The notes under the pieces: model-generated
Seen by the model: only the letters and a program-made list of their open reading frames with translations
Database searches by the model: none
What the model was told of the DNA's origin: nothing
Shown: piece by piece, positions 5,546 to 32,436 of the stretch
Numbering within the stretch: position 1 is the stretch's first letter
Layout: every line of letters begins with the position of its first letter
Translations under genes and position numbers: made by a program
Source of the DNA: a virus
Reading direction: 5' to 3' (one strand)
Length of the DNA stretch: 45,001 nucleotides
IMG/VR virus record: IMGVR_UViG_3300043449_002207
Location: 1 to 45,001 of that record

Positions 5546-6019
5546 TTAAGGAGTTTCTTCGGACTCTGCAAGTTTTTCAACGCGCCGTTTTTCCATTTGA
5601 TCGCGTAAGTGTGGCCCCGCCTGGGCGTTCGTTAAATCGTGAAGCCTTTCAGCGACGGTCTCGATGCGAGTGTAATTATTTTGGATGCGTTGAGAGTGCT
5701 CATCAATTCGTTTGTTAACGTCTCGCTCCATTTGCATGATTACTTGCGTCAGATTGTCACTGCCCTTGGGAAGTTGATTAATCTTGTCGCTTATTTTCTC
5801 AACGATACTTTCAATTTTTAACGCAAAATTTTCAATTATCTTATCCATCCTATTGTCGATCTCTTTGTCCTTTAGCTTTTCAGTTATTTTATCCGTCTTA
5901 TATTCAGTGTGAAAATTTTTAATAAAATAACCGACTATCGCCAAAAGAATGGCCCCAATGAAAGCGAAGAAGGAAGCCATCGCCCCCGCTATTGCCAGTA
6001 TCATTTGATATTGTTCCAC
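5546..6019 (-). CDS. Membrane-anchored coiled-coil protein, lysis-associated candidate
   Basis: One strongly hydrophobic segment at about residues 7-33 (ILAIAGAMASFFAFIGAILL and on) is followed by 120 charged residues with heptad-like patterns, probably a long periplasmic or cytoplasmic coiled coil. The start is a GTG at 6019; an ATG five codons later is an alternative. It sits first in the lysis group ahead of the two cell-wall enzymes, so it could be a holin-associated or inner-spanin-like protein. No family motif decides this. Confidence 0.6.
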   Translation of the reverse strand: MEQYQMILAIAGAMASFFAFIGAILLAIVGYFIKNFHTEYKTDKITEKLKDKEIDNRMDKIIENFALKIESIVEKISDKINQLPKGSDNLTQVIMQMERDVNKRIDEHSQRIQNNYTRIETVAERLHDLTNAQAGPHLRDQMEKRRVEKLAESEETP

Positions 6020-6108
6020 TGTTTAAGGGTAACTTATTTTGACTCAGAACAAACAGATTAAAGCACCGCGTCTTTATTAGCGCGTCATTCGAAAGATAGC
6101 CTATCAGC

Positions 6109-6309
6109 ATGGAAAATCAAAGCATCGAAGTAACCCCAAAAAAGTTTTACAAAAGCAAAGGCATCCTTATGAGCGCCGCGATAGCACCTCTCGCCTTCAT
6201 TCAAGGAGTCCAAGATTTCATTGCTCACTACGCTTGGTTGCAACCAATCATCGTTACGCTATGGGGTTGGCTTGTTCGATACATGGCCAAAGCCCCACTT
6301 GCGAAATAA
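6109..6309 (+). CDS. Small membrane protein, holin candidate
   Basis: The 66-residue protein has a charged N terminus (VTPKKFYKSK), then two hydrophobic stretches (GILMSAAIAPLAFI, then LQPIIVTLWGWLVRYM) and a short basic end. Size, two spans and position beside cell-wall enzymes fit a class II holin, which would form pores that release the endolysin. It is alone on the + strand between two - strand genes, and no good ribosome site precedes the ATG. An uncertain gene start or a weakly expressed gene is possible. Confidence 0.5.
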   Translation: MENQSIEVTPKKFYKSKGILMSAAIAPLAFIQGVQDFIAHYAWLQPIIVTLWGWLVRYMAKAPLAK

Positions 6310-6345
6310 TTAAAGTCCGCAAGTCGTAATCATAATTATTTTCCA

Positions 6346-8742
6346 TTAGTTGTTTCCTTCAAAAACGACCTTGTTAAGTTTACCAACAATATCGTTTGTT
6401 GCGGCTCCCGCGCCTGCCGCAGTTCCCGTAATTTTTAAAATGTTTGTATTGGTCAAAGTTAGGCCGGTTACTTCGGTGTAACCCGCATTAGCCGCTAAGG
6501 CTAAGCCCCCACTTGCGTTCATTGTCGTTGAGCACCGGACAACGGTTGAGCTAACTCGAATACATATAACATCAACGTCCCATGACGCCGCAGCGGTTGT
6601 AGCGAGTGCTGTAGAATCAAAAACTACAGTCCCCCCAAAATAAACTTTTACCTGTTTTGTAGAAGTTGAGTTGACTACTGTACCCGCATATCTTGCGCGA
6701 ACACTATGGCCGTTAACGTCGAGCGTGCTGGCGGGTGTTGTGTAAGTGTAAAGGTCAGTTTCACTCGTCGTTGTATTTCCGGCATCGGCAAATCCTTCTG
6801 TTAAAGTTCCGCCAGTCGCATAGCGAACATTACTTGCTTTAGTTTGGAAGTGGGTTCCGTTATATTCGTGACTACCGGCTTCAGCGGTTGTGTTTATTGT
6901 TCCCGAATCAAACTTTAATGGAGATGTTCCGGCTGTAGCTGAACCGGCTTTGACATGAACATTGGCTGAAATAGACCCAACGCCCAAGCCAACACCTACA
7001 CCTGCACTATTTATTCTAATGTAATTACCAGAATTGCCCGGGTCGTTAAGATACAGCGCCGCTGCCTGCATTGAAATCGCGGTAGTAGATCCAATATAAA
7101 AATCTAAATTTGCTGACTCTTGTTGAGTCATTCTCCAGTTAGTACTCGATGCTGAAGGGTATCCCATTATTACCCCATCGGTTGACGTTTCTCCGCTTGT
7201 CGTCGAATGGGTAAATTGCGCCATGTTTGCCTTAGCCCCAGTAGTGGCCGCATCAATATGTAACAGAGATGTCGGAGTTAGCTCGTTAATCCCTAAGCCT
7301 GCCGATGTAAAATTACCATCAACTGTGGTGCCATTCGTAAATCTAATGCCTGAGTTTGTTATTCCGATTTGTTTACTGAAATCGTTGCTGTATAATTGTG
7401 TTTGGGAATTACTGACGCGAACTTTAACCCCACCAGGAGAAGTTAAATCTATAGAGCCGCCAGTCTCTTGGTTTTGTATAACAAAATCAGTTCCGCCGGT
7501 ATTCCCCACTATCACGCCATCGGTAGCGGTTGTCCCTGTGCTTGTTCCCGCAAAAAACTGCAAATACGATGCGATAGCGTTGCCTCCGTTAATCTTGAGT
7601 CTTTTATTTGTTGTATCGTAAACAAAATCAGAAGTTCCCGTTAAAACGTTAGAGCCATCGCCATAACCCACATAGGTAGAGGTTAAAGCAGCTGAACCGC
7701 CGCCGGCAGGGGTTGCCCAGGTTCCATCGCCGCGCCAAAATGTCGAAGAGGTTGCGCTTGTGCCTGAATTTAAATTTGTGACAGGGAGATTTCCTGTTAC
7801 ACCAGTTGATAGCGGCAAGCCCGTTGCGTTTGTCAAAGTTCCCGAAGTGGGGGTTCCCAAAATAGGAGTTACAAAAGTGGGTGACGTGGCGAATACGGCA
7901 GCGCCGGTTCCAGTCTCGTCGGATATAGTATTTTTTAATTGCAACGAAGTTGTCGCAGCAAATTGCGAAAGCGGATTAGCAACGAGAGCGTCTCCGCCGC
8001 CAGAGGGTGCGGCCCACGTTCCGTCACCACGCCAAAACGTGGATGCCGTTGCCGCAGTTCCGCTGTTTAAATTTGTTACAGGAAGGTTGCCAGTTACTCC
8101 AGTTGAGAGTGGAAGGCCAGTCGCATTCGTTAAAGTTCCCGAGGTGGGCGTTCCAAGTATCGGGGTTACGAAAGTCGGAGAAGTTGAAAAAACTAAAGAG
8201 CCTGTTCCAGTTTCATCCGTGACCGCAGTAATTAAATTCGCAGAAGACGGAGTCGCGAGCGCAGTCGCAACGCCAGTTCCAAGTCCCGACACTCCAGTCG
8301 CAATAGGTAAACCAGTCGCGTTGGTGAGAGTCCCCGAAGTTGGCGTTCCAAGAATAGGAGTTACGAGCGTTGGCGATGTTGCAAAACATGCAGCGCCCGA
8401 GCCAGTCTCGTCGCTTAAGGTATTTTTTAATTGAAGCGAGGTTGTCGCCGCAAACTGAGAGAGCGGGTTCGCAACAAGAGCGTCACCTGTTCCAGCAGCG
8501 GTCGCCCACTTTACTCCGAGAGTTTGCGCGCTATCTGCGGTGAGAACCTGTCCATTGGTTCCGACAGGAAGTCTTGCGTCGACAGAGCTATATGTCCACA
8601 CGTCTCCCTTTGTTGTAAGCGGAGAGGTGCTTCCGCTTCCCCCTTGATTCACTCCTGAAATATCAGGATAGACCGTGGTCGTGGCCCCAGCGAACATGGT
8701 CGCCAAAAGTGTGAGTGATAAAAATAGTTTATTTTTTTTCAT
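6346..8742 (-). CDS. Secreted-type tail fibre/appendage protein with internal repeats
   Basis: The 798-residue protein starts with a signal-peptide-like sequence ([22 protein letters not shown]). It then has repeats built of [18 protein letters not shown], then [17 protein letters not shown], then [11 protein letters not shown], a module common in phage and metagenomic tail fibres, followed by a Gly/Thr/Ser-rich beta region. Residues from about 450 on look like a beta-structured fibre shaft and tip. No S74 chaperone motif is visible. It would help bind the host surface. A Sec signal on a virion protein is unusual, and a secreted or cell-surface role is the alternative. AGGAG precedes the ATG. 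Confidence 0.78.
7687..8472 (-). repeat. Imperfect tandem repeats inside the fibre gene
   Basis: The coding sequence carries three or more diverged copies of a unit that encodes [20 protein letters not shown], and two copies of the longer block ending in FWRGDGTW plus [21 protein letters not shown]. Copies differ at many third codon positions, so they are old duplications under protein-level constraint and not recent slippage. They could recombine with each other or with fibres of other phages. Confidence 0.8.
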
Positions 8743-10073: not shown

Positions 10074-13000
10074 TCACTTACTTTGCTTTCCTGTAATCAG
10101 TCCTTGAGTAAAATCGACAGGCCCTTCAGGCTCAGCGTCACCCGACACAACGTCCTTTAAGTAACCAACAGGCTTTTGGAAGCCGCCTAGGGGAATAGTC
10201 CTGCCTGTTGCTCCAGAAGCCACGAGCCCCAATAGGGTCATGCCATCTTTAAGGTCTCGGGTTTTGAATTCCTTGTCGTCCGACAAAAGCTTAACGCCTG
10301 AATAAATACCACGAACCCCACTTTCAAGGGTCGATACGGCAGGAGAGAGCGAGAGCTTGTCGTCCGTGTAAGTCGGCCTGTCCTCAACCCCAAAAACCTG
10401 ATTGATATTTTTGTCAAAATACTTGCGGCTATAGTTTATTGTCGGCCCCACGAGGGGAATCATTGCCGTTCCGAACCTAAACTGAGAGTCAAAAAACGTA
10501 TAAATAAAATCATCTAAGTATTCTTCGTCGTCGTCTTCGTCGAGCTTGCCGCGCATTCCCTTGATAATAAGGTCTCCGCCAACGGCCAGCATCATGAAGC
10601 CCATGGTGTAAATTGTCCCGAGCCTTGCGGTCGCCTGCTTGGGCGTCAAAGTTTTGAGAGCCACATTTGCTTCGGTATTTATCATATTCCCGATGACGTT
10701 AAAAAATCCTGTATACATGGAAAAATTTCGATACCAAGGAGAGCCAGTTTCAATTTCGGAAACTCCGATTGAGCGTTGGTCGCCTTGAGTCGTGCGAACT
10801 GTCGCGTCCGCATGGCGAACTGCTCCGTCTATTTCAAGCCCGCGTGACAGTGCGGAGTTGTAAGCAGCAAGCCACACAATGTTCGACGTTTGCCTCTGGG
10901 TCATCTTCATGAGAGCAAACGAGTTCGCCTCAAGGAAGTCTGCTGCTTTCGTTATACGGCTTGGATTAAGGGCAATTCCCTTAAGGTCACGTTGCGCTTC
11001 AGCAGCGCCTTCTTCAATCTCGGTTCTCATGAACTTAGATTTTTCAGCAATAAAATTTGCGGTATCATTTGGCGCCGTCAAATAAGAAACCGTGGCCGCG
11101 CGCGTATGTTTCAGCGAATTCCACAAACTTCCTTGGTCGATATTTACTTGAGCAGGAAACAACGAAGCATAGTTTTGCAGTGCGTTGCCAAAGTTCCATA
11201 TCATTGTGTTTGCCGTGGCACTTGCCTTGAGGAACCCTGCAAAATCGTTGAGCCATTTTTTTGTCTTGCCGTCAGTAAAAACAACTCTGTTTGTCGAAGC
11301 TCTTTGCAAGAACGGCTCAAGCAAGTTCTCAATGACCGTTGGGTCAACCGCATGAATCGAAGCGGAGAACTCTTTATTGTAAAGCAAGCGAGCCGCCTGC
11401 TTCACTGGAGCCCGCATGTTGATGAACTTCAGAACATTATCTAAGTCGCGGTTCGTTTGTTGCAAGTCCAGAGACAGGGGCGAGAAAAATTTCACGCGCT
11501 CCTTGGTCATTCCCTTGGACACGTTCGGCATTTCATAGCCAGGGTTGCTTTCAAGAATTTCACTCTTAAGAGCATTCCTTGCGACGCTTGGGTTTGCCGA
11601 GCGGTCGTAAACGAGCGGAACATATCCGCCCTTATAGCGACCAAATGGGGTTACTATTTCTTGAGCTTTAATCTCGTTGAAATAATAACCAGTGTCTTTT
11701 TTGTGGGCAGCTTGAGCGCGAGGTTTTAATTCCTCATAAATGTTCCAGGTATTTTGGATGTATTCCATGTCGGCCTGCGTGATGCGGCCTTCTTTATACA
11801 TTCGGTTCATGAACTTATTCCAGTTCGTGGGGTCGACCTCGCCGTTCTCGTCAATAGTTCCCCAACCAAAACCCCCAAGGAGTTTCATCAAGTTCGACAG
11901 GTTTCCAGTGTGTTTTATCGCAGCGATTAAATCGAGTTTATTTTTAAACTGAGTTACTGAGCCGTCAGCTTTTCGGCCAAGCTCAGAAGCTTCGATAGGT
12001 TTCCAGTCGTTATCACTGAGAGACTTCGCCCACTCTTTAGTAAGGCCAACAAACTTTTGATAGTAGTTGTTTTTGTCCAGAATGTAATTTGTGAACGCAT
12101 CATTGATAGGTTCCCAGAAATACTTATTCCAGGGGCCGCGAGCGCCTAAGTCCATTGTTCGAACCCAAGCTTCAGTTCTTAACATGGAGTTTTTCCATCC
12201 GAGAACTTTAATTTTGAATTCGTCCCAACGAGTTTTTTCGTGGTCGTACTTCTGCGGATTTTTTCCATGCTCATCGTTTTGCAACATGGTTTCTTCTTTG
12301 ACCTTATCGAACTCAATTTTCTCTTGAGCGAGTTGAAACTGTCTTGCGTCCCTGCCGATATCTCTCATTGCGCGCATGTCATCAACAAGCTGCGAATATC
12401 TTGCGACACTCAACGTCTGCCAACCTGCCGCGCCTTGAAGTGCGCTATCCATGATCGGCTTAAGCATTGCGTGAGTGATCGGGTCATAGTTTTGAATCTT
12501 TTCCAAATACTCGTCAGCTTGCAAGGGTTGCTCTGGCCCAATTCCGAATTGAGCAAGGATTGCTTTTTGAACCATAAGATAATCAATGTCGCGAGTCTTC
12601 GCGGCGTCTTGAGTTTTGGTGCGGTAAATTTGTTTAAATAAATCGTTGCCTTTTTTGGTGAGCGCCTTAACTTCCAGCGCTGCCTTATAAAGTTCGTGAT
12701 TAAGAAGCTGCTGGCGTTTAGCTTCAATGAAGCCTGCAAAGTCTCCTTGAGAAAGGAGAACCCCTGCTTCACGAGCGGCCTTCGCGCCTGCGCGCTGATA
12801 ATCAATCGGACGAATATCCACGACACGCTTTTGCTGCATCATGAGCTTTGCTTGCTTACGACGAGCAGGGTCGGTGAAATTTATTCTTGTCCCACGACGA
12901 ATTAAATCTTTCAGAACGGCAGGGTTATTTTCAACAACGTGCTGCCATTCCATTTCCATAACCTTCGTCCATTCGTCGTTATGGATTGCATCGAGTGCAG

Positions 13001-16000
13001 CTTGGGCGAGTTCTCCGCTTTCAAGTAAGTCAGGGAACAGGTCGGACATTTCAGCTTCGACCCTTGCTTCAATGATTTCGCTTCTGTTTCCAGCTTTCGA
13101 AATCGCTTCGATTAATTCCTTGCCATTCTTGAAGCCCAACTGTTCGGCAACCATTTCAACCGGCATTCCGTCAACCTGGGTTGTCCCGCTGGGCATAGCC
13201 TTATAAGAGTCAGCGTAAAGTTTTTTAACTTCCTCGCGGTTTATTTTTAATTCGAGTCCATCTTTTTCGAGGGTTGTGTTTTTTATGAGGTCAATTGCCT
13301 TGAACCCTGGCGAATTGTTTACATCCGCAGTGATATTAGTTTCGACTTCTTTGCGCTTTGCCTTGTATTCGGGTTGGCGTTTAACGTCCGAATCTCTCAT
13401 CAGCTTAGCAAGTAAAACTTCGTCGGAATTTCTGCGAGCTTCATCAACCGCATTCATGTATCGAACTTGCTGCTCGGGGTTCATCCCCAAGGCAGCAGCG
13501 GGCAACACTGAATAGTTCATTGTGTCTTGGGCTTTTTTAATTTCTTCTTTGGTCGCGAACATTCTATCGAGAACGTCTTTGATTTCAGGAGTTATCTGCA
13601 CGCCGTAACGCTGAAAGTAAGTGTTCTTGATAGAACCGTAAATCGAAGTAAGCCAGTTCTTAAACCTGTCGAAGACGCGCTTGAGAGCGGTGCTTGGAGC
13701 CACGCCACGCATGACGTATGCTTCCAGGGTCTCAGCAAATTTCTCTTGCTGGAACTCTTTAACTTCCCCAATATCTTTCACTTCGAGATATTTAAGAATC
13801 TCTTGAAAGTCTTGTTTCAACTCCGCACTTGCTTCGGGCCTGCTCACGAGGTCATTTAAAACCCGCATGTAAAGGTGCCCAGTCTCGTGCAGGAATGACG
13901 ACTTGTCTTTTCCTTGGAACAGACGAATGATTGTCTCGCCTTCGCGCATTGCAATTTGAGCGAGAGGATTATTTTTGTCTTGATAAAAAGTTTGTGGCTC
14001 TTTTATTTTGTAAAGTCGTTTCCCTTTTTTCTCATATCCATAAGGGACTTCGTTTCCAAAGGGCCGGTTTTGTTGATTCCAAAACCCCTTGCCGTCTTCG
14101 GTTTGCCAACTCGATGGACGAATAACCTTTTTCGTATCACGTTCTACGGCTTGATAAATAGCAGTCGCAATGCCCATTCCCTGTAATGCATCAGTAACCT
14201 TAATTCCATTTTCGCCGTCAGAATCGTCGGCGACCCATTGGTTTCCATCTAAACGAAAGTGACCTTCTCCGACACCTGAGCCGCCTTGTTTTTCAGCAAA
14301 GACAGTTATTTTATCTTTAACTTCTCCGACGATTTCGCCGTCTTCGTCAAACACTGGGTCGTAGGAAACGCTAAAGTTCCATCCTGCCGCTTCGAGACGG
14401 ACAAGAGAGTTGTCGCCTTTTTTTTGATTGAACGATTCCTCATCCGCAACGAGGCCCTCACTTTGAGCCCAGTCAGGAAGGAGCCCAACTTTTTGGTCTG
14501 CAAATACAGTGTTCGCGGGGTCGGTTTTATTTGTTTCCGCATGAGGGCCGAAGTTCACCCAAGAATTTTGTCCTCGGGTTTCGGTCGTCATCGCTTTGGC
14601 AGCGAGCGCGGAATACATGCGAACGTGTGACTGCCACGCATTTTCTTCTCCGTTTTGGCCGAAAGAGTTTCCTTCTTTCACATGGCCAAAAATATCGTGA
14701 ACGATTCTGAACACGTCATTTGCAAGAAGCGGCTTTCCGTTTGAATCAACTTCATTGGTCGGAGCCAGCAGCGGATTATTTTCCACATTGTTCTCGGTTC
14801 CAAAGCCTTGATCGGTTGAGAAAAACCACATATGCCCACTTGCCACGTCATCAAATAAAGCTTGCGACGAGGCGTAAGGGTTGGGCGCGCCCGCAGGAAT
14901 AGCTTCAATTTTCAAACCCATTTGTTTTACAATTTGAAATTGAGAAATAGTTTCTTGGATAAGAGCAGCGTAAGCCGCTTTGACTTCAGGGTTGCTTGGC
15001 TCGTGCTTCATTGCCTCAAAGGCATCAGCGATTTTCTTGGAACGAACAGGGTCAACGCGAGCATATTCAGATTGACGAGCAACCTTCAAGCCAGAGTTTC
15101 GAACGTAATTTTCTGCTAATTGTCGGACGGATTGGTTTGGTCGGGCGGAGTTTGTTGGGGCGTTTCGGAGCGGTTCGCTTGGTGCCATCGCCGCTGCATT
15201 GCTACTTTGTCCTGATTCGAGTCTTCCTCGTCGCTGATTAGCTGCGAGTTCTCTTGCTTGCTCGACTGATTTTGTGGCGAGGAGTTGGCGGACTTCTCCT
15301 TCGCTTGCATCTTGGACTTCATTCTTAAAGTTTACACCATAACGCCCCTCAAGCTCAAGTAAAGATTGCGTTGTGGCCTTCTCAACTGGCGACTGATTTA
15401 AAGCCCCTGCCGCAGCAGGAGTGTCGGCAGCTTCGATTCGAACTCCGTACTTGTTGAAAAGTTCGACAGGGTTTAAGCCTTCTCGTTCTGCCAAAGTCTT
15501 GAATACCGCTTCGACTGCCGCCGCATTATCCTTAGCTTCTTGAGGGGAAGCTCTGCCTGTTTTGATTAATTGCTCCTCAATGCTTTGTCTTATTGGTGCG
15601 GTTTCGTCGAGTTTTTTTACAGTCTCAACGTGTTGTTGCTCGGTCTTCGCGTCGGCCTGAACTTGTTCGTCGGCCTTGGTCAAGGCATCGGCTTCGTCTT
15701 TTTGTTGATTGAACGTGAGCATTTCAGAATCGAACTTCACGTCGTCTTTGAGTCCAGCATAGTGTTCAGTGTCGACAAGCTTGTCGAGCCAAACAGAATA
15801 CGGAACTGCAACGTCTCCGCCAGTTTCAACGGCTTCGTCGTATTTTTCCCGAACTCCAAGGGTCTCGCTGAATTCAGCGGGGCTTAAATCTTTGCTTTGT
15901 AAATACTTCTCATAAGCTGCGACTGGAACGAATACAGTTTCAGGGCCATCTTTTGTAATTTCTTGAACGAGTTCAGTCTGTGAATCAGAAGAACGCTTTT

Positions 16001-17462
16001 TAAGTTTTGGAACCTTAACCTTCTCGGCCATCTTATCGTAATACTGGCGAGCGATATTTGTTTGCGTTGCTTGTTGGTGTTTAGCAATCGCAGTTGTGAT
16101 TGTCGCAGGGCCAGAGAACAGTCCGCCCGAAGCGCCGCCAACAAGTCCAGCGTTTACGGTTTGGCCAGCTAAGTCTTTGAGCGCGTTCTTATCAACGCCA
16201 GTTAAGTAATCAGTGTAAGCTTGGCCGACTTGCGTGAGCATTTCTTCTCCGCCTTCAGACAAGGTCGAAGCCGCCATGGTTTTTCCAAACGCGAGCATGA
16301 CTTCTTTGGTGACGTTCTTGCCGAACTGTTTCAGCAACGCTTTTTCCCAGTGCTTAAAAACTCCGAAACTAATTGATTCCACACCCGCCTCAATCGTTCC
16401 ATAAATGGAAGCGTCCAAGAGAGCTTGATTTTTTGTGAATTGTTCTTGCTTTTGAGTTGGGGCGTCTGGGCTCATGAGTTCCAAGAAGCCTGGCTCGCCT
16501 GGGCGCGGAGCACTGCCGCCTTCCATGCTGATAGCAGGAGCCCCACTATCTGCCGCTGCTTTTTGATCGGCAGCAATTTGCTTTTGCTTCTCAAGGTTTT
16601 GGTCGTATTTCTGAGCGCCAGAAGTGATTCCGATTCCAATGAGCCCAGCTTCACCGAAGCCAGTCGCGAATGCGACAAGTGCCGCCATGCTGCTTGGGGC
16701 GGAATTCACCGCCTGAATAAATAAAGCATTCGCTGCCTTCGCCTTGTTCCCCGCTTTTATCTCGCGGAAAATATCAACCCCTAAGTCTGGAATTTTACTT
16801 CTCTCATAGTCCGCGATGTCGTCAAAAAACTTTGCAACATCTTTCCCATAGTTATCCTCAGGTGCGTCAGGAAGGCGAGGAATGTTTTTTCCAATGTCCG
16901 ACAAAGTGCCAGTAAAATTATTCTGCATTTCGTCAAGAGTGTTATTCGTAACTGTTTGACCAACATCGTAAACGAATCTTGGAGCTTTTGCTATGCTGGA
17001 AAAAAGCGAAGCCATTCCGCCATTGAGCGCGTGATAAGCTTTACTGAGTCCAGTGTATTCGTGGGTCGTGTCTTCAATGTCTTGCAAAGGAGCAAGGTCG
17101 TCTTTTGCCAAAGCAGCGTTATCGGAGTTCGATAACCATTGAGTAAGGCGCGGGTTCTTGTCGACCATTCCGTCGTAATCAATTTGCGTATCAACTTTTT
17201 TTGAAAGTGAGTCGAAGTTCCGATCAACAAACGAAGGCGGCAGGCTCAATTTTTTTGAGATATCCAAAACCTTTGCTTGCTTGTCGGGACTCTTATCTTT
17301 CGCAACGAACATGGATTGCTGCAAAGAAGCTTTGCTTTCCCCACGTTCTTGGTCGGCTATTTGATCGAATACTCTTTGTTCAGCAGGCTTTGGAGCTTGC
17401 ACCGAGAGTTGGTCGTCAACGGTTGATTCTGCCGCCAGAAATGAATCGAGGTCATTTTCCAT
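10074..17462 (-). CDS. Giant internal virion/ejection protein, polyvalent type (2462 aa)
   Basis: This is the largest gene, placed as the last of three internal virion proteins, where T7-like phages encode gp16. Visible parts: a hydrophobic segment near residues 255-280; a conserved domain with NDVFRIVHDIFGH (915-927, His922 and His927) and TTETRGQNSW (959-968), as in large phage polyvalent proteins; a GNAT-like QGMGIA loop (1094-1099); an HETGH motif (1192-1196) typical of zinc metallopeptidases; long charged helices; and a hydrophobic stretch near 2290. Polyvalent proteins are packed in the virion and enter with the DNA. Likely roles are a DNA-ejection conduit plus enzymes that modify host proteins on entry. 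Enzyme activities are inferred from motifs only. AGGGG precedes the ATG. Confidence 0.82.
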   Translation of the reverse strand: MENDLDSFLAAESTVDDQLSVQAPKPAEQRVFDQIADQERGESKASLQQSMFVAKDKSPDKQAKVLDISKKLSLPPSFVDRNFDSLSKKVDTQIDYDGMVDKNPRLTQWLSNSDNAALAKDDLAPLQDIEDTTHEYTGLSKAYHALNGGMASLFSSIAKAPRFVYDVGQTVTNNTLDEMQNNFTGTLSDIGKNIPRLPDAPEDNYGKDVAKFFDDIADYERSKIPDLGVDIFREIKAGNKAKAANALFIQAVNSAPSSMAALVAFATGFGEAGLIGIGITSGAQKYDQNLEKQKQIAADQKAAADSGAPAISMEGGSAPRPGEPGFLELMSPDAPTQKQEQFTKNQALLDASIYGTIEAGVESISFGVFKHWEKALLKQFGKNVTKEVMLAFGKTMAASTLSEGGEEMLTQVGQAYTDYLTGVDKNALKDLAGQTVNAGLVGGASGGLFSGPATITTAIAKHQQATQTNIARQYYDKMAEKVKVPKLKKRSSDSQTELVQEITKDGPETVFVPVAAYEKYLQSKDLSPAEFSETLGVREKYDEAVETGGDVAVPYSVWLDKLVDTEHYAGLKDDVKFDSEMLTFNQQKDEADALTKADEQVQADAKTEQQHVETVKKLDETAPIRQSIEEQLIKTGRASPQEAKDNAAAVEAVFKTLAEREGLNPVELFNKYGVRIEAADTPAAAGALNQSPVEKATTQSLLELEGRYGVNFKNEVQDASEGEVRQLLATKSVEQARELAANQRRGRLESGQSSNAAAMAPSEPLRNAPTNSARPNQSVRQLAENYVRNSGLKVARQSEYARVDPVRSKKIADAFEAMKHEPSNPEVKAAYAALIQETISQFQIVKQMGLKIEAIPAGAPNPYASSQALFDDVASGHMWFFSTDQGFGTENNVENNPLLAPTNEVDSNGKPLLANDVFRIVHDIFGHVKEGNSFGQNGEENAWQSHVRMYSALAAKAMTTETRGQNSWVNFGPHAETNKTDPANTVFADQKVGLLPDWAQSEGLVADEESFNQKKGDNSLVRLEAAGWNFSVSYDPVFDEDGEIVGEVKDKITVFAEKQGGSGVGEGHFRLDGNQWVADDSDGENGIKVTDALQGMGIATAIYQAVERDTKKVIRPSSWQTEDGKGFWNQQNRPFGNEVPYGYEKKGKRLYKIKEPQTFYQDKNNPLAQIAMREGETIIRLFQGKDKSSFLHETGHLYMRVLNDLVSRPEASAELKQDFQEILKYLEVKDIGEVKEFQQEKFAETLEAYVMRGVAPSTALKRVFDRFKNWLTSIYGSIKNTYFQRYGVQITPEIKDVLDRMFATKEEIKKAQDTMNYSVLPAAALGMNPEQQVRYMNAVDEARRNSDEVLLAKLMRDSDVKRQPEYKAKRKEVETNITADVNNSPGFKAIDLIKNTTLEKDGLELKINREEVKKLYADSYKAMPSGTTQVDGMPVEMVAEQLGFKNGKELIEAISKAGNRSEIIEARVEAEMSDLFPDLLESGELAQAALDAIHNDEWTKVMEMEWQHVVENNPAVLKDLIRRGTRINFTDPARRKQAKLMMQQKRVVDIRPIDYQRAGAKAAREAGVLLSQGDFAGFIEAKRQQLLNHELYKAALEVKALTKKGNDLFKQIYRTKTQDAAKTRDIDYLMVQKAILAQFGIGPEQPLQADEYLEKIQNYDPITHAMLKPIMDSALQGAAGWQTLSVARYSQLVDDMRAMRDIGRDARQFQLAQEKIEFDKVKEETMLQNDEHGKNPQKYDHEKTRWDEFKIKVLGWKNSMLRTEAWVRTMDLGARGPWNKYFWEPINDAFTNYILDKNNYYQKFVGLTKEWAKSLSDNDWKPIEASELGRKADGSVTQFKNKLDLIAAIKHTGNLSNLMKLLGGFGWGTIDENGEVDPTNWNKFMNRMYKEGRITQADMEYIQNTWNIYEELKPRAQAAHKKDTGYYFNEIKAQEIVTPFGRYKGGYVPLVYDRSANPSVARNALKSEILESNPGYEMPNVSKGMTKERVKFFSPLSLDLQQTNRDLDNVLKFINMRAPVKQAARLLYNKEFSASIHAVDPTVIENLLEPFLQRASTNRVVFTDGKTKKWLNDFAGFLKASATANTMIWNFGNALQNYASLFPAQVNIDQGSLWNSLKHTRAATVSYLTAPNDTANFIAEKSKFMRTEIEEGAAEAQRDLKGIALNPSRITKAADFLEANSFALMKMTQRQTSNIVWLAAYNSALSRGLEIDGAVRHADATVRTTQGDQRSIGVSEIETGSPWYRNFSMYTGFFNVIGNMINTEANVALKTLTPKQATARLGTIYTMGFMMLAVGGDLIIKGMRGKLDEDDDEEYLDDFIYTFFDSQFRFGTAMIPLVGPTINYSRKYFDKNINQVFGVEDRPTYTDDKLSLSPAVSTLESGVRGIYSGVKLLSDDKEFKTRDLKDGMTLLGLVASGATGRTIPLGGFQKPVGYLKDVVSGDAEPEGPVDFTQGLITGKQSK

Positions 17463-19136: not shown

Positions 19137-19646
19137 TTAGGGCTCCTTTTTCTTATCAGCTTTAGTCTTTTGTGAACTTCTAAATTCAGAAGAAGCATAC
19201 CGAAATGCGTCCAGTCCAGCGGTCGCATAAGTGTTATTTGCTTGGCTTCTTGCTGCAATAACTCCAAGTTCTCCAGAAAATCTTTCATTGGAAGCTTCTT
19301 GCTTCAGGCCCCAAGCTCGTTTCCAAGCGTTGTTTTTTATAGTGAGTGCATCGAGCGCGCCCTGTTCTTCAGTCTCTTGTTGAACAAGCATTGCGCTGCC
19401 AGTGTTTACATCGACGCCCGAAGCTCCATATGCTGCTCTTTGAGAACCGCGAAGCTTACGAACTTTTTTCTTGTAAGCAACCGCATCAGCTTCGCCACGG
19501 ATGATTTCATCCTCGGCTCGAAGTTCGATTAACTTTGCGTTGCCATCAGAAACTTTTTTCGCATAATCCCCTTGAGCCTCAATTGCTTGGCCCTGAATAT
19601 AACCGTTCGCAAGGGAAGCCCCTGACAATGCTGCTGTAGCGCCCAT
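19137..19646 (-). CDS. Internal virion protein (gp14-like position)
   Basis: The 169-residue protein has a Gly/Ala-rich start (GATAALSGASLANGYIQGQA), then long helices, and AAYGASGVDVNTGSAMLV in the middle. That last segment (YGASGV-x-x-x-G-S) is common to podovirus internal core proteins and related tail-assembly proteins. It probably forms part of the ejection machinery with the next two genes. AAGGGAG precedes the ATG, and the gene lies two bases after the tail tube gene. Confidence 0.78.
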   Translation of the reverse strand: MGATAALSGASLANGYIQGQAIEAQGDYAKKVSDGNAKLIELRAEDEIIRGEADAVAYKKKVRKLRGSQRAAYGASGVDVNTGSAMLVQQETEEQGALDALTIKNNAWKRAWGLKQEASNERFSGELGVIAARSQANNTYATAGLDAFRYASSEFRSSQKTKADKKKEP

Positions 19647-26686: not shown

Positions 26687-28444
26687 TTAACTTGCTTGCG
26701 CGACAGGTTGTCCCCCATTTAATTGCTGAGTAATGGACTTCAATGCGCTCGGTTGTTCAACGTCGGTTTCGGAAAGCGTCTTTGCGGTCTCCGCTCCTTG
26801 TTGAATCATTTGCATTCGCTCTGCTTTTTGCTGAGCCGCTTGCATTTGCGCATCAATTTCTTCGACTTCTTCGTCCGTTCTCATGATATCGGGCGGAACC
26901 CCAAGAGAGTCGGCATAGATTTCGACCATTTTTCCAGTGTTAACTTTTTTGTATACACTTGTATCCACGGCCCCAACTTCACCAACGAATCTTGCGAAGC
27001 GTTCAATGGTTCCAACTCCGAGCGCTTTTTGCGCAAGGTGCATGGCAGACATGTATTCCACTTTGAGTTCGTGGCCCTGAAGTTCTTTGGGCGGCGGCGG
27101 CAATAACCTTTGGTCGATATGATAATCAAACGCAAGGTCAAGCATCGGGTCATTTTGATCGAGGTCAATCTGTTCGATGACCGGCCCCAAGGCTTGAAGC
27201 CTTTCCTCGTTGCGGTAATCGTTCTCGCGAGCAGTGCGCTCACGGTCTTCAATCGACGCATACATTCTGAAAAGATCGACATAAAACGACCGATCAATGC
27301 GCGATTCAATTTTGCGTTGCTTTTCTTCAAGCTCTCCTATGTCTTGAACGACGTTGAAAGCTGGCTCAAATTTCTGAGAGCCCGAAGTTGAGTCAACCCA
27401 AGTCACTCCGCCAGGTAACTGATTTACCATTGCGTTCTTGAGTGAAGTTGGTGCAACCATTGGCGGTCTTACTTTTTTCTCGATGACTTCAGCGGAGCGT
27501 TTCTCGCCGTACTGAAGTTGTTTGTTGTCTCCGATGGAAGTCATTCCAGGGGAATCGGTTGCGTAAGGGTCTTCTCCAGTGCGTTCCCAACGTGGACAAA
27601 GAATCGGAAACCTTTGATAGCCCCGTTCAGACAAGAACACGTCTCTGTCTGAACGAGTATCGTAAGTCCCAGAACCGCCAGTCGAACTTCCAGTCTCCCA
27701 ATAGCAGGAAGCGAATCTCTTAAACTTGGAATCAATGGCGCCGCGCTCGGGTTCGTAATAATCGTTGGGTTGAATCATGTGAGAAACCCCAATCCAATAT
27801 TCGTAATTGCCCTGTTCCCAGGCATCCTTCACAAAACCAGAGATATTTTTGAAATCAATTTTTCCAGAGTCCTCGTTGATGACTCCGAACTTATGAATCG
27901 CCTGACGAACCGTCATTTTATAGTCGCGACTAAACGTATTCACTCGCCCAAACTCATCTTGAGCTATGCGGTAACTTCCAACTGGGAAACTCATCGAGTG
28001 AAATACTTTGTCGAAATTTTCTTCAAATGAAAATGGAGCAGTTCCGTAAACCCCAAGGTCTCCGTAAACCATATTCAAAGTGTTATAAACATTCGAACGT
28101 GCAAACGATGCCCTGATGATTTCAGTTACTTGATGAAGCCAGCGCTTAACGGAGCCAAAGTTCGATAGCTCTTGATCGGCAATAGTGTATTTGAACCAGG
28201 GGCGAGACTTCGAAGTAAGTCCGCCCATCATTCCAGCGCGCAATGTTTTTACTGCCAAAACTGGGTCGCAGTTCAGAATCTTTTGGTTTCTTCTGTCACC
28301 TTTGTTTACGTCCGAAGTGTAAAACCTCGCGCGCCTGGGTGAGAAGTGATCGGATAAATCGCGATACGCTGGCAGGAAACTTTGCAGTTCTCCGTCCAGC
28401 ATGACGACTTGTTTTTGATAACGCTCTCGTCTTGTTTCCGTCAT
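26687..28444 (-). CDS. Portal (head-to-tail connecting) protein
   Basis: The 585-residue protein matches the T7 gp8-type portal family: an N-terminal helix, then YRDLSDHFSPRRARF with RRNQKILNCDPVLAVKTLRA, GMMGGLTSKSRPWF, and a long central part with RFPILCPRWERTGEDPYATD (the R-F-P-x-x-x-P-R-W motif) and SPGMTSIGDNKQLQ. Twelve copies form the ring at one capsid vertex through which DNA passes. The end has Gln-rich helices (MQAAQQKAERMQMIQQ). Gene order and size fit BPP-1/epsilon15-type phages. Confidence 0.93.
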   Translation of the reverse strand: MTETRRERYQKQVVMLDGELQSFLPAYRDLSDHFSPRRARFYTSDVNKGDRRNQKILNCDPVLAVKTLRAGMMGGLTSKSRPWFKYTIADQELSNFGSVKRWLHQVTEIIRASFARSNVYNTLNMVYGDLGVYGTAPFSFEENFDKVFHSMSFPVGSYRIAQDEFGRVNTFSRDYKMTVRQAIHKFGVINEDSGKIDFKNISGFVKDAWEQGNYEYWIGVSHMIQPNDYYEPERGAIDSKFKRFASCYWETGSSTGGSGTYDTRSDRDVFLSERGYQRFPILCPRWERTGEDPYATDSPGMTSIGDNKQLQYGEKRSAEVIEKKVRPPMVAPTSLKNAMVNQLPGGVTWVDSTSGSQKFEPAFNVVQDIGELEEKQRKIESRIDRSFYVDLFRMYASIEDRERTARENDYRNEERLQALGPVIEQIDLDQNDPMLDLAFDYHIDQRLLPPPPKELQGHELKVEYMSAMHLAQKALGVGTIERFARFVGEVGAVDTSVYKKVNTGKMVEIYADSLGVPPDIMRTDEEVEEIDAQMQAAQQKAERMQMIQQGAETAKTLSETDVEQPSALKSITQQLNGGQPVAQAS

Positions 28445-28447
28445 GAC

Positions 28448-28774
28448 TTAAGCCCCAATGAGAGTCTTGCCTGCTCCGCCGCCGCTTCCATCAGCAGCAG
28501 CGCCGCCAGGAATTCCGGTGGGAGAAGTAAGGATTGTTGATTTTCTGCCGCCAACTCCTGCGCGAAGGGCTCTTGCTCTTGCGCGGATAGCTTCTCTTTC
28601 GGAAGTTGCTTGGTCTGTCAATTGTTTGTCTTTGAGTTCTTTTGCGGCGGCGGCTTGAGCGCGCTCTTGTTTACCTGCCACGCCTTTGGCATCTTGCCTT
28701 GCTTGGTTTGACGAAACTGCCGATACGGTCGTACTTGCGATTGCGACCCCTGCTATAACTGCGGTTGCTGCCAT
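28448..28774 (-). CDS. Small Gly/Ala-rich protein next to portal
   Basis: I place the start at ATG 28774 after GGGGG with about ten bases spacing; a longer frame overlaps the GNAT gene. The 108-residue product has a hydrophobic Ala/Val/Ser-rich start (AATAVIAGVAIASTTVSA), a helical Gln/Ala/Lys middle and a Gly-rich end. The layout resembles small proteins encoded just before portals in this phage group, possibly virion components. No motif gives a function. The start could be a membrane segment or a signal-like anchor. Confidence 0.6.
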   Translation of the reverse strand: MAATAVIAGVAIASTTVSAVSSNQARQDAKGVAGKQERAQAAAAKELKDKQLTDQATSEREAIRARARALRAGVGGRKSTILTSPTGIPGGAAADGSGGGAGKTLIGA

Positions 28775-28776
28775 GA

Positions 28777-29232
28777 TTAAATTCCCCCTTTGTCGAGACG
28801 ACGTGAATAGATTTTCTCTATGCACTTGTAACCCATTCGTTCAAGGAGAGGGCCGAAGTCGTGCATTATCTTAACGTGATGATAAACGACCTGAACGCCT
28901 TCAGCTTTCAACTGCTCATCGCACCACTTGATAAGTCGCCCGCCGGTTCCTCGGAAACCTTTCCTTATGAAAAGGATATCCTGAACCGCCTGAAGTGAAT
29001 CGTCATAATGCAAGTTTTTTTGCACGAAATAAACTCCGTAACCAATTAGCTCACCCGCGTCATTGCGTGCGGTGTAAATTCGAAGCACTCCCATGTGGTC
29101 AAGTCCGATGTATTTTTCCCAATTTGGTTTGAGCGGAATATCTAAGTTGGCAGAGATTTCTTGATAGTGTTCCTCAATGAGCGGTTGCACTTCATCACGA
29201 ATAGCTTCGACAGTTTCTTTTTGGAATTTCAA
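28777..29232 (-). CDS. GNAT-family N-acetyltransferase
   Basis: The likely start is a TTG at 29232, which overlaps the stop of the previous gene (TTGA) and has AAAGGA nine bases upstream; a TTG 36 bases further upstream lacks a site. The 151-residue product has the GNAT layout: an N-terminal helix pair, strands with RIYTARNDAGELIGYGVYFV (residues 51-70), the acetyl-CoA loop LFIRKGFRGTGGRLIKW (87-103), and the late GYKCIEKIYSRRL strand. Such enzymes move an acetyl group to an amine on protein or small molecule. GNAT genes beside the portal recur in BPP-1-like phages. The substrate is unknown. Confidence 0.85.
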   Translation of the reverse strand: MKFQKETVEAIRDEVQPLIEEHYQEISANLDIPLKPNWEKYIGLDHMGVLRIYTARNDAGELIGYGVYFVQKNLHYDDSLQAVQDILFIRKGFRGTGGRLIKWCDEQLKAEGVQVVYHHVKIMHDFGPLLERMGYKCIEKIYSRRLDKGGI

Positions 29233-29852
29233 GCGGCGCGTTCCTTTCGATACTTTGGAGAGACGCAATCCACTATCAAGTGAATGCGCTCTGAGTCTGA
29301 ATTATTTACTAACCAGTGCTTTCGCTTATGATTGAAAGCCCATAGTTCACCGGCTTGCATGTGGACGTATTCCCCATGGCCAGGCTCGTGCTCCGAAAAG
29401 AATAAATTCCCTTCGTCAGATTTCAAACATAAGTGAAAGCGCTCGAAGTGATCGGCATACGACCCCTCGTCAGCATGGGGGTCGATGAACCCGCCAGGCT
29501 TCAGGCTTACGATTAACGCCCGACCCAGTTCGATTGATTCCGTTTCAATAAATATTCGGTCGATCAAGTCTTGGGCTTCAGGCAGAAGTGTTAAAGCAGG
29601 ATAATTCACCGAGGATAGCTCATTGAAAGCCGCGTGAATTGATGACGACGCTGCCCATCTTAAAAAAATGGACTGAGTGTCTTGATGAGGAGTTCCAGGC
29701 ACGTCCTGTCGTGCCGTCAACTCGTTAAATAATTGAGGGTTATTTGAAATGTTTTGAAGCAGGAATGCCACGTCGATTCCTTCCACAAGCTTCTCAAATG
29801 AACTATCCATATGACGAGATTTTGACGGCGACTTAACCATTTGCCAAGCCAC
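29229..29852 (-). CDS. Aspartyl/asparaginyl beta-hydroxylase-like 2-oxoglutarate oxygenase
   Basis: The C-terminal half shows the iron-binding triad of 2-oxoglutarate dioxygenases of the Asp/Asn beta-hydroxylase type: PHAD gives His126-x-Asp128, KHWLVNN gives His179, and SERIHLIVD gives Arg189, which would bind 2-oxoglutarate. LKPGGFIDPHAD and the FNHKRKHWLVNNSD segment are characteristic. The 207-residue length is short for the family, as for phage members. It may hydroxylate a virion or host protein side chain. The GTG start lacks a clear ribosome site and directly follows the terminase stop; ATGs at 29840 and 29810 are alternatives. It is coupled to the GNAT gene. Confidence 0.75.
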   Translation of the reverse strand: MAWQMVKSPSKSRHMDSSFEKLVEGIDVAFLLQNISNNPQLFNELTARQDVPGTPHQDTQSIFLRWAASSSIHAAFNELSSVNYPALTLLPEAQDLIDRIFIETESIELGRALIVSLKPGGFIDPHADEGSYADHFERFHLCLKSDEGNLFFSEHEPGHGEYVHMQAGELWAFNHKRKHWLVNNSDSERIHLIVDCVSPKYRKERAA

Positions 29853-29854
29853 AC

Positions 29855-31339
29855 TTAGTCATTGTTGAGAGTTTTTTCATAGTCCCAATCCGACCTTACG
29901 TTTCGATTTTGATATTTCTGCGCATACAACCCAGTGTTCCCACCTGGCATCATGTGAGCCAAGTTCATAGGGCAATCGTCCATTGCAAACGTCAAAGCAA
30001 GTGCGTCCGCTAAGTCAGGAGACGAGCCCAATCGTTTTTTAATTTGTTCTTTTTCTTCTAATCGAAGCATTCCTTTATGAAAAAAGTATTGAGGCTCGGA
30101 CAATTCCTTGACGAGCCCTGGAACTTTTGGAAGGCGCCCACCTTTTTTCACCCATTCGGCCATCATGAACCACATTTCGCTTCTCTTATTGAAGTATCTC
30201 GGGTCGGTTGCACGAGACGAAAAATTAATTCCCATCGGTGAATGCCCAGCAGCTTTCAAGTTATCAATCACGCCGCCGCCCCAACCGCCTGTCGCATCCA
30301 CGAACTCGACTTCAGATTCGAACTTGAATTTGCCTCGAACAACCCTGGCAGCAATCTGCAGAGTATCTGCACCACGCATAATCGTTGGCATTCCAGACCA
30401 AAGACCTTGCCTTGGAAACAGAACCGTTCGGTCATCGCCGAAGCGTGCAACGTCAACGCCGATTCTTTTTTGAATTCTATTGTAAGCTTCAGGCCGAAGG
30501 AATCTCTCCATAGCGTCGCGAACTTCGTCGGGTCCAATGAGAGAGTTCAGGGAACTGGGCGGGAATTTTCCAAGAATATAAGACATGACCCATGGGTCAT
30601 CGCGACCATAGAGGTCAATCTGTTCTTGAGCCCACTTGATATCAATTCGTGGTGAACGCTTAGGGTCGAGCGGGTCGCCTGAAATCCTGATTATCTGCCA
30701 ATATTTCGACAACGAAGTCGCGGCAGCGTAAAGCATTCCATCAAGTGAGCTTGGGTTTCCCGCTTGGATTATCCGCCCCCACTTACAGTTCCCCATTGCC
30801 TGCTCACCTTTTTTCAATACGGCAAGCGGAATAGTTCCCGATTCATCAATCTCAACGAGCACGAACTCGGAGTGTAATCCTGACAAGGTTTCACCTTGCT
30901 GCTCAGCGCTGGCCTTCTTATCAAACGACCGAGCACCCAAGAACCAGGTTTGCGGATGTTCGTTGCAGTAAAATCTCTCCTTTGTCCAAGTGAAAAACTC
31001 TTTGACCCACTTTCCCTTTTGCTGCCATTTCGAAATTTCTGGCCAAAGGTTGTCCCTTAAGTTGTCGCGAGTTACTGAGAGGATGAAACCCTTCGGGTGC
31101 ATTCCAGGCTCACCCAAACAAGTGATGAACCAAAGCGCAGCGATAGCCAGGACCGCAGTTTTTCCAGGGCCCGCGCAAGCTTGAAGTGAAATACGTTTCG
31201 CGCCCCATTCTGGAAGCGTGTCAAGAAACTCTCCTTGCCATAAGTCAGGAATAAATCCGAACTCGTCCCATGCGAATAACCTTGGGCTCTGTCGCCAAGC
31301 ATCCATTTTCTCAGCGCTTGGATTATGTTGATAGCTCAT
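29855..31339 (-). CDS. terL: Terminase large subunit
   Basis: The ATPase half has Walker A ACAGPGKT (residues 54-61) and Walker B VLVEIDES (160-167) with the catalytic Glu. The RNase-H-like nuclease half has GVDVARFGDD (Asp296), EFVDATGGWGGG (Asp348) and DLADALALTF (Asp442/Asp445), giving the expected acidic centre. It cuts the replicated DNA into genome units and drives it through the portal. The 494-residue length is usual. It starts in a 4-base ATGA overlap with a small gene. The nuclease motif order fits terminases of BPP-1-like phages. Whether packaging is headful or at a fixed site cannot be read from this. Confidence 0.95.
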   Translation of the reverse strand: MSYQHNPSAEKMDAWRQSPRLFAWDEFGFIPDLWQGEFLDTLPEWGAKRISLQACAGPGKTAVLAIAALWFITCLGEPGMHPKGFILSVTRDNLRDNLWPEISKWQQKGKWVKEFFTWTKERFYCNEHPQTWFLGARSFDKKASAEQQGETLSGLHSEFVLVEIDESGTIPLAVLKKGEQAMGNCKWGRIIQAGNPSSLDGMLYAAATSLSKYWQIIRISGDPLDPKRSPRIDIKWAQEQIDLYGRDDPWVMSYILGKFPPSSLNSLIGPDEVRDAMERFLRPEAYNRIQKRIGVDVARFGDDRTVLFPRQGLWSGMPTIMRGADTLQIAARVVRGKFKFESEVEFVDATGGWGGGVIDNLKAAGHSPMGINFSSRATDPRYFNKRSEMWFMMAEWVKKGGRLPKVPGLVKELSEPQYFFHKGMLRLEEKEQIKKRLGSSPDLADALALTFAMDDCPMNLAHMMPGGNTGLYAQKYQNRNVRSDWDYEKTLNND

Positions 31340-31539
31340 TTAAACGCTTTGCAGTTTTTTGGCCCCTTACAGTCTATGCACCTGTTCGGAACCGTGAATT
31401 TGGATTGTCTGAGAACGACTCGCTTGAACCAAGTAACGAAGTCCCGAACCCAGCAGGTAATCGAGAGGGCCTTGTAAGCTTCCTTCGATTCAACGACTAC
31501 GGCTTTTGTGAATCTGTTTTTCCAGTTTGAATTGGTCAT
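31336..31539 (-). CDS. Small protein between SEC-C and large terminase genes (67 aa)
   Basis: The gene shares 4-base overlaps with both neighbours, so it is translationally coupled. The product has a Lys/Arg-rich start, then aromatic helices (ALSITCWVRDFVTWFKR), and ends with RCIDCKGPKNCKAFK, a C-x2-C-x5-C cluster that may bind metal. No family is recognised. A DNA- or terminase-binding role is a guess from position only. Confidence 0.6.
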   Translation of the reverse strand: MTNSNWKNRFTKAVVVESKEAYKALSITCWVRDFVTWFKRVVLRQSKFTVPNRCIDCKGPKNCKAFK

Positions 31540-31835
31540 TTGAATTGCTTCCTAACTTGATCGACTACGCTTGAAACCTGCTCATACATTTTCTTGGGAA
31601 TCGTTGGACGCACTTTTGGCAGGCAACATTTCTTTGCTTTGGTTGTGGTTCCGCAAAAGCAAGGAGCATTCGCTGGCCATTTACGGAGCGGGTTCCAAGC
31701 GAAGCCAGGCTCCAAAGCGCGAGCGGTCTTATATTCTTTTGGGTTTCGCTTCCAGGGAAACGGAGAGTTCTGTTTTTCTGCTTCAATTGCATCCATCATG
31801 GCAGCGGCCATGAACTCATTCGTCGTTATGTTCAT
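31536..31835 (-). CDS. SEC-C motif zinc protein (99 aa)
   Basis: Residues 58-73 read APCFCGTTTKAKKCCLP, which has the C-x-C-x8-C-C layout of the SEC-C zinc-binding motif known from the tail of SecA (Cys59, Cys61, Cys70, Cys71). The start has Met-rich helices, and the first 20 bases overlap the small terminase gene. Phage SEC-C mini-proteins are often encoded by terminase genes. The role is unknown, perhaps a protein-protein or nucleic-acid adaptor. Confidence 0.7.
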   Translation of the reverse strand: MNITTNEFMAAAMMDAIEAEKQNSPFPWKRNPKEYKTARALEPGFAWNPLRKWPANAPCFCGTTTKAKKCCLPKVRPTIPKKMYEQVSSVVDQVRKQFK

Positions 31836-32436
31836 CGTCTTCTTCTTTCTTTAAGGGCAAGGCAGGCGGCGGATTAGTTATGTAAGTCGTGGCCATGAAC
31901 TGCTCGTAAGAGAGCTTGCCAGTGACTTCGACCTTTTGAGCGAACATTCCCTGGCCTTTGCCGAGGAGTTCGAGCGCCTTCAGTTTATCTGAGAGTCTAA
32001 GTTTTTTGCGGTCGCCAACGTGAACAGATTCGCGCCCGACCTTCTCGTATATTTCATCGGTCTCAAACGAGGAGACGGCAGCGGCAACATCGGCAGGCCA
32101 TTCCGAAATAGGCTTCAGAATTCCGTCGTCAGTATAAAGTTCGCGGATATCAGTTGTTGCGAGGCGTTGAACCTCGCGCAGAATTTTCTCGCGCATCCAT
32201 TCATTGCGAGCTTGGTATGCTTCTTTGAGCATTTCAGTTCGTCCCTTGTCTTGGTTTACGAACAGGCAGAGTTCGGAGTAACGAATTCCCCACGCTTCAG
32301 CAAGGTCAAGAGTTGAACCGCCGTTGGCGACATGCTCGAAAATGGTTTCCATCGTTTCCTTTGGAGTGCTGAACAGTCGGTCGGTGACAAGCTTGCGAGC
32401 GAGCACGACCGCCTTGTCTTCTTTGACTTTGGGCAT
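31816..32436 (-). CDS. terS: Terminase small subunit
   Basis: The 206-residue protein has an N-terminal helix-turn-helix-like part (LFSTPKETMETIFEHVANGG with STLDLAEAWGIRYSELC), a central helical part (EAYQARNEWMREKILREV, then LYTDDGILKPISEWP) and DKLKALELLGKGQGMFAQKVEV with LSYEQF. This is the pattern of small terminases with the GKYLGMF-like end. It recognises phage DNA for packaging and regulates the large subunit. It is followed by the SEC-C gene and then the large terminase gene. The ATG at 32436 has a weak ribosome site. Confidence 0.85.
   Translation of the reverse strand: MPKVKEDKAVVLARKLVTDRLFSTPKETMETIFEHVANGGSTLDLAEAWGIRYSELCLFVNQDKGRTEMLKEAYQARNEWMREKILREVQRLATTDIRELYTDDGILKPISEWPADVAAAVSSFETDEIYEKVGRESVHVGDRKKLRLSDKLKALELLGKGQGMFAQKVEVTGKLSYEQFMATTYITNPPPALPLKKEEDDEHNDE

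Follow-up and report, generated by a model that had tools for sequence, protein, structure and literature searches.

We analysed a stretch of 45,001 bases from one IMG/VR virus record (IMGVR_UViG_3300043449_002207), hereafter the window, in which a predicted 2-oxoglutarate/Fe(II) oxygenase (the hydroxylase) and a GNAT-fold acetyltransferase (the GNAT) are encoded side by side among the late genes. The late genes occupy about 33.4 to 4.2 kb of the minus strand and follow each other along it in the order small terminase, small SEC-C-like gene, large terminase, hydroxylase, GNAT, protein of 108 residues, T7-type portal and Bbp19-like protein, beyond which are found tail and internal virion proteins (Table 1). 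An earlier note on this DNA had placed the GNAT directly downstream of the oxygenase, with the pair between large terminase and portal. Annotation of the window bears this out, with the refinement that the 108-residue gene separates the GNAT from the portal. The likeliest start of the GNAT is a TTG at 29232, sharing bases with the stop codon of the hydroxylase in a TTGA overlap; the GNAT frame is open upstream to 29268. After the GNAT stop, the ATG of the small protein comes 2 bases on, with AAAGGGGG ahead of it. An identical 4-nucleotide overlap joins hydroxylase and GNAT in Limnohabitans phage DC33.

Coupling of the hydroxylase and the GNAT

An IMG/VR profile scan with the hydroxylase alone gave 360 relatives, of which the best 80 were kept; adding the window and four phage records gave 85 loci, grouped into 32 clusters at 70% identity. 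The pairing recurs in these related phages, the GNAT being adjacent to or fused with the hydroxylase in 22 of the 31 testable clusters. Counted by locus, the hydroxylase was followed by the GNAT within 150 bp in 49 cases and fused to it in 21, and the GNAT came first in two (L038 and L042, reversed yet still paired). The remaining loci were two in-order pairs broken by TAG codons (L107 and L113, counted as distant in the locus table only through these broken frames), one distant pair (L090), eight loci with no GNAT and two contig ends.

Single-polypeptide fusions occur in 8 of the 22 coupled clusters and measure about 340 to 383 residues where complete, the fusion of L064 being a 715-residue open frame. 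Fusions were also seen in a Polynucleobacter isolate genome and in a Limnohabitans metagenome-assembled genome, ahead of what by eye is a portal-like gene. On the hydroxylase tree, the fused and separate states imply at least 6 changes, with 4 forced by the starred branches; this count excludes rows without a GNAT, whose inclusion gives 7 and 4, and L097 is labelled 'noG' on that tree although its contig is too short for this to be judged. The distances among hydroxylases and among GNATs are correlated over 35 loci (Mantel r 0.78, 0 of 2000 permutations), a result that indicates joint inheritance only, since linked genes of one phage would correlate anyway. The median ratios of nonsynonymous to synonymous substitution rates (dN/dS) in the relatives, 0.16 for the hydroxylase and 0.10 for the GNAT (0.29 and 0.07 in the fused sets), indicate that both enzymes are under purifying selection there. 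Taken together, the TTGA overlap, the repeated fusion and the joint inheritance indicate that the hydroxylase and the GNAT are coupled. Fusion, shared inheritance and purifying selection together put this coupling on far firmer ground than gene adjacency in the window alone would.

Some relatives use TAG in an unusual way. In L107, L113, L111 (hydroxylase at about 5998-6597) and L120 (Dyella jiangningensis, CP007444), in-frame TAG codons stand where relatives have Gln; the contexts in the hydroxylase frame are YLRSYP*GPFG and HHIVL*SAPG, and the frame ends with TGA. When TAG was read as sense, the coverage by frames of at least 200 residues rose from 0.69, 0.33 and 0.53 to 0.94, 0.90 and 0.97 in L107, L113 and L111, respectively. 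No tRNA gene was found in the 10-13 kb stretches of the TAG-bearing loci examined. This type looks like an amber-recoded phage or prophage, present in a complete bacterial genome.

Predicted folds and active sites

The oxygenase frame with its intact His-x-Asp...His...Arg set, as first described from the letters of the window, is present, and an alignment of 36 relatives shows the set to be conserved, with H126 and H179 invariant and D128, R138, H140 and R189 at least 90% conserved. The protein matches PF05118 (Asp_Arg_Hydrox) with 50.6 bits for a cut-off of 22.6 (E 2.4e-13), as do all 36 aligned relatives (E<=0.01); a scan with the single hydroxylase sequence found no close relatives. Its AF2 model forms a double-stranded beta-helix (predicted local distance difference test, pLDDT, 92.4; predicted template modelling score 0.88), and the iron and 2-oxoglutarate ligands align with those of 4p7w and 1e5r. 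VIA-align gave Z 15.6 with 1e5r (root-mean-square deviation, rmsd, 2.7 over 151 aligned residues), 15.2 with 4p7x, 15.1 with 7v4m and 14.3 with AspH (5apa; rmsd 3.4, 157 aligned), the top scores being near ties. The start is listed as GTG; a later one, ATG at 29810 (M15), is possible because the mean pLDDT of residues 1-10 is 48 and the homologues start only near residue 17.

The 'Asp/Asn' specificity first attached to this enzyme is unsupported, since it comes only from the Pfam family name. The closest solved structures, by fold as well as by sequence, are free-proline hydroxylases; in the profile search they are L-proline cis-4-hydroxylase (1.4e-13) and then proline 3-hydroxylase (4.2e-8), with weaker matches to a nucleoside-antibiotic beta-hydroxylase (2.9e-5) and AspH (8.8e-5). 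At the iron site the phage profile has HxD where the aligned AspH row reads HTG, and HxG is the two-histidine iron site of AspH; the site thus differs from that of an AspH-type Asp/Asn beta-hydroxylase. LpxO lipid A hydroxylase was discarded, with 17.9 bits for the NCBIfam equivalog model against a cut-off of 500. Nor is the gene a mis-call or pseudogene, the frame being intact and conserved with a dN/dS well below 1 in relatives, and a defence system was rejected, as PADLOC matched neither enzyme of the pair nor a prophage fusion.

For the GNAT of the window, the Pfam score is under the curated cut-off (14.8 against 27 bits, PF13508), and a match to the acetyltransferase family phrog_1249 was obtained; PF00583 is matched by 26 of 34 aligned GNAT relatives (E<=0.01). 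The model has the GNAT fold previously proposed (pLDDT 94.9). Its top VIA row is the ribosomal-protein-alanine N-acetyltransferase RimI (7n1l; Z 15.6, rmsd 2.6, 142 aligned), a score tied with those of polyamine, thialysine, histone and aminoglycoside acetyltransferases. Profile comparison found no similarity between hydroxylase and GNAT. Both enzyme folds are thus secure, but the substrate assignment of either one is not.

The gene after the pair

Each enzyme also occurs by itself. Within the stretches covered, none of the 28 GNAT-seeded loci (L001-L026, L030, L031) has the hydroxylase. A sample drawn by portal similarity comprised 79 new loci, 65 of them with at least 1.5 kb upstream; the GNAT lies within 1.5 kb before the portal in 34 of these 65, and the hydroxylase is present in 2 of the 79 (L198, L211). 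Since GNATs are also found alone, we regard the GNAT as the core and the hydroxylase as the add-on. Bacterial relatives of the hydroxylase are mostly without a GNAT, which is present in 6 of 80 GTDB loci. In GTDB loci L119, L124, L127 and L132, PF05118 hydroxylases carry a fused C-terminal beta-propeller (about 746-760 residues).

Two architectures surround the pair. The first, found in the window, DC33 and most fusions, runs terminase, hydroxylase, GNAT, small protein, portal; the second, found in Pseudomonas phage PfAn1, L093, L096, L101, L103 and the Janthinobacterium contig L117, runs hydroxylase, GNAT, ejection protein and two large proteins. The downstream gene of PfAn1 matches phrog_598, 'DNA ejection' (2.2e-38). 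In both architectures the gene after the unit encodes a hydrophobic N-terminal segment that is uncharged and rich in Ala/Gly. This holds for 17 of the 22 coupled clusters, compared with 36 of 1101 other genes of these loci and none of 20 upstream neighbours (any cluster member scores, the control is per gene and not de-duplicated, and L107, L111 and L113 are excluded). The small protein of the window has the N-terminal sequence MAATAVIAGVAIAS and a C-terminal STILTSPTG...KTLIGA motif. In L090, where the two enzymes are apart, the gene after the GNAT begins MGATAMMAGTVVGG; in L100 and L029, where a hydroxylase but no GNAT was detected, the genes that come next start with MPWSVAAAV and MPWAAAAIV. 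The pre-portal small proteins (L195-L273 and the window) share a conserved C-terminal STILTGPxG...KTLLG, related to phrog_831/phrog_16847 of unknown function, and are of two N-terminal kinds, hydrophobic M[AGS].. or MC with poly-Pro.

The N-terminus of the pre-portal protein varies with the presence of the GNAT. Residue 2 is Ala in 20, Gly in 14, Ser in 7 and Pro in 1 of 42 GNAT-positive loci; it is Cys in 11 of 26 GNAT-negative loci and in none of the 42. Pro-rich N-termini are found in 0 of 42 GNAT-positive versus 15 of 26 GNAT-negative loci, giving a raw table of 42:0 versus 11:15 (Fisher 1.7e-8), or 31:0 versus 11:15 without the 11 GNAT-positive loci added from earlier sets. From the 65 portal loci, this table drops L228 and L259 (the picked gene is the GNAT), L232 (a copy of L231), L235, L255, L264 and L270 (no credible small gene) and L244 (GNAT distant); starts were adjusted by eye in seven rows (L198, L211, L222, L236, L247, L268, L269). 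On the portal tree, 3 changes suffice for the Pro-rich kind. Ala, Gly or Val is residue 2 in 23 of 31 genes after the hydroxylase/GNAT unit versus 57 of 271 general genes, a weak comparison with 6 other ejection-like comparators. In the second architecture, a scan of the ejection proteins for residue 2 gave an alignment that was too little conserved.

Table 1. Positions in the window of the enzyme pair and of other late genes
Feature	Position	Strand	Evidence
2-oxoglutarate/Fe(II) oxygenase (hydroxylase), 207 residues	29229..29852	-	PF05118; H126, D128, H179, R189
GNAT-fold acetyltransferase, 151 residues	28777..29232	-	phrog_1249 1.7e-8; fold model
Small protein, 108 residues, proposed substrate	28448..28774	-	N-terminal Ala-rich hydrophobic segment; phrog_831 0.009, weak
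Portal, T7-type head-tail connector	26687..28444	-	PF12236 4.7e-122; phrog_332 7.1e-136
Terminase large subunit	29855..31339	-	phrog_2 6e-26
Terminase small subunit	31816..32436	-	PF03592 8.2e-9
Second internal virion protein, farther down the late strand	19137..19646	-	phrog_418 1.8e-30

Two further late genes can be mentioned. The 99-residue gene between the small and large terminase (31536-31835) has a SEC-C-like motif scoring 18.6 bits for a Pfam cut-off of 20.4, and a protein of 2462 residues (10074-17462) matches phrog_9880, of unknown function, from end to end (2.6e-282).

Candidate substrates and known systems

The earlier note had suggested that the pair modifies virion or host proteins after translation. 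Because the downstream neighbour is constant, the virion direction is the better supported, with the substrate itself inferred and a host target as a live, if less likely, rival. Our tentative reading, to which we give somewhat less than an even chance, is that the two enzymes form a late unit modifying a particle protein, with the product of the immediately downstream gene as first candidate. The unit would be expressed late, together with the genes for packaging and the portal, either by translational coupling through TTGA or as a fused polypeptide. It would act co- or post-translationally on a small protein whose N-terminus is uncharged and rich in Ala/Gly: the pre-portal protein in the window, the DNA-ejection protein in phages of the second architecture. 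Acetylation by the GNAT would fall on the N-terminus of this candidate (Ala, Gly, Ser or Val once Met is removed) or on a lysine close by, and would take away a charge in front of a membrane-type segment. The hydroxylase, an add-on that only a minority of the phages with a GNAT possess, would add a hydroxyl group to a side chain of this protein or of its complex. From these sequence patterns we infer that both enzymes would be active and would share one substrate, the product of the next gene, at whose N-terminus the GNAT would probably act. It is possible, if rather doubtful, that some short-tailed phages have in this way a dedicated bifunctional hydroxylase and N-terminal acetyltransferase for maturing their own injected or portal-adjacent virion protein.

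Several observations weigh against this proposal. The closest solved hydroxylases use free proline. Eight clusters have a hydroxylase without a detected GNAT, mostly ahead of other gene kinds, and the hydrophobic segment is missing downstream in 5 of the 22 coupled clusters (L038, L042, L044, L079, L081). The correlation of N-terminus with GNAT comes largely from one clade, and 11 GNAT-negative loci retain a non-Pro N-terminus. With correction for phylogeny, 1-2 of 8 independent pairs are concordant and 0 discordant, which is not significant; the N-terminus pattern is what would be expected if the GNAT acted on that N-terminus, and it is for this reason kept as a hint only. Finally, Rac, a phage GNAT of similar position, targets host RNA polymerase (PMC7552054).

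This last case leads to host takeover, in which the pair would modify host proteins late (e.g., RNA polymerase, the ribosome or an elongation factor). We consider it unlikely, although the phiKMV-type Rac triggers cleavage of the RNA polymerase alpha subunit (PMC7552054), RimI is among the neighbours of the GNAT model, and the Foldseek neighbours of the oxygenase include the P. putida prolyl hydroxylase with EF-Tu (4iw3), both tied with many others; the same N-terminally hydrophobic next gene in two architectures would be left unexplained. Less probable still is a small-molecule pair working in turn on a free amino acid or a metabolite like it, with hydroxylation by the oxygenase and acetylation by the GNAT. 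The proline hydroxylases at the head of the profile search and the amine and aminoglycoside acetyltransferases near the GNAT model are consistent with it, as is the filing of the hydroxylase under metabolic potential by the authors of DC33 (PMC12195039). However, the hydroxylase is often absent where GNATs of this family occur, so that the GNAT needs no hydroxylated product, and the fixed place before a virion-type gene would remain without explanation.

The two could also be late accessory genes without a shared substrate, both tolerated between terminase and portal. Adjacency alone is indeed partly expected, since the GNAT is common just before the portal (34 of 65 loci), but the repeated fusion and the persistence of the pairing in both orders and both architectures make this improbable. 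Very improbable is nucleic-acid modification, with a GNAT like Mu Mom and an oxygenase acting on bases: Mom is related to GNATs, both superfamilies contain nucleic-acid-modifying enzymes, and ALKBH5 and ALKBH6 are among the Foldseek matches of the oxygenase, yet its closest matches are amino-acid or protein hydroxylases rather than AlkB types and the neighbours are virion genes, not base-modification genes.

If modification of a particle protein is correct, the phage-encoded unit, in its fused form a single enzyme, would both acetylate and hydroxylate that protein. Phage hydroxylases and GNATs are usually catalogued singly as auxiliary metabolic genes; here they form one unit, repeatedly fused, whose place, mostly before a virion-type gene with a hydrophobic head, supplies a concrete and testable candidate substrate. 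This would open post-translational modification of the ejection machinery as a topic and would offer a reason for the GNATs that adjoin internal virion proteins in many podoviruses.

Among known systems, the PF05118 family (vertebrate AspH, bacterial proline hydroxylases, LpxO) has the fold, the His...His and the Arg in common with the phage hydroxylase; AspH differs by its HxG iron site, whereas the phage enzyme has HxD like the proline hydroxylases. Asparaginyl beta-hydroxylases are reported from pelagimyophages (PMC7029224) and cyanophages (PMC3037559). GNATs of marine podoviruses adjoin internal virion proteins (SIO1 pc40 and cobaviruses), and a T7 gp13 counterpart has been proposed for them (PMC6775973). 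As in the phage studied here, those GNATs directly precede an N-terminally hydrophobic virion-type gene, but here a hydroxylase is coupled or fused to the GNAT. In T7, gene 14 is immediately preceded by gene 13, a like position, and gp14 begins MCWAAAIPIAISG; profile comparison gave no support for gp13 (phrog_308) as a homologue of the GNAT, the hhalign probability being 0.1% for a 34-member profile against the single gp13 sequence. Rac, the phiKMV-like N-acetyltransferase, is likewise a phage GNAT whose gene borders on the structural genes, but it provokes RNA polymerase alpha cleavage, and the available text on it names no hydroxylase partner (PMC7552054).

The nearest parallels are two phage genomes. 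PfAn1 has the same pair ahead of ejection-type genes, and DC33 has it as ORF7/ORF8 in the same order, from large terminase to small protein and portal. In the accessible text on DC33, ORF7 and ORF8 are named separately, ORF8 under metabolic potential, and the pair is not linked (PMC12195039). This tailed phage with terminase and portal (L027, PQ492659.1) is entered as Inoviridae in GenBank and as Caudoviricetes in its paper (PMC12195039). In searches of an open-access library we found no paper joining the hydroxylase with a GNAT or describing the fusion. Both kinds of phage protein, GNATs encoded close to virion genes and members of PF05118, are already in print, and what may be new is their pairing and their fusion.
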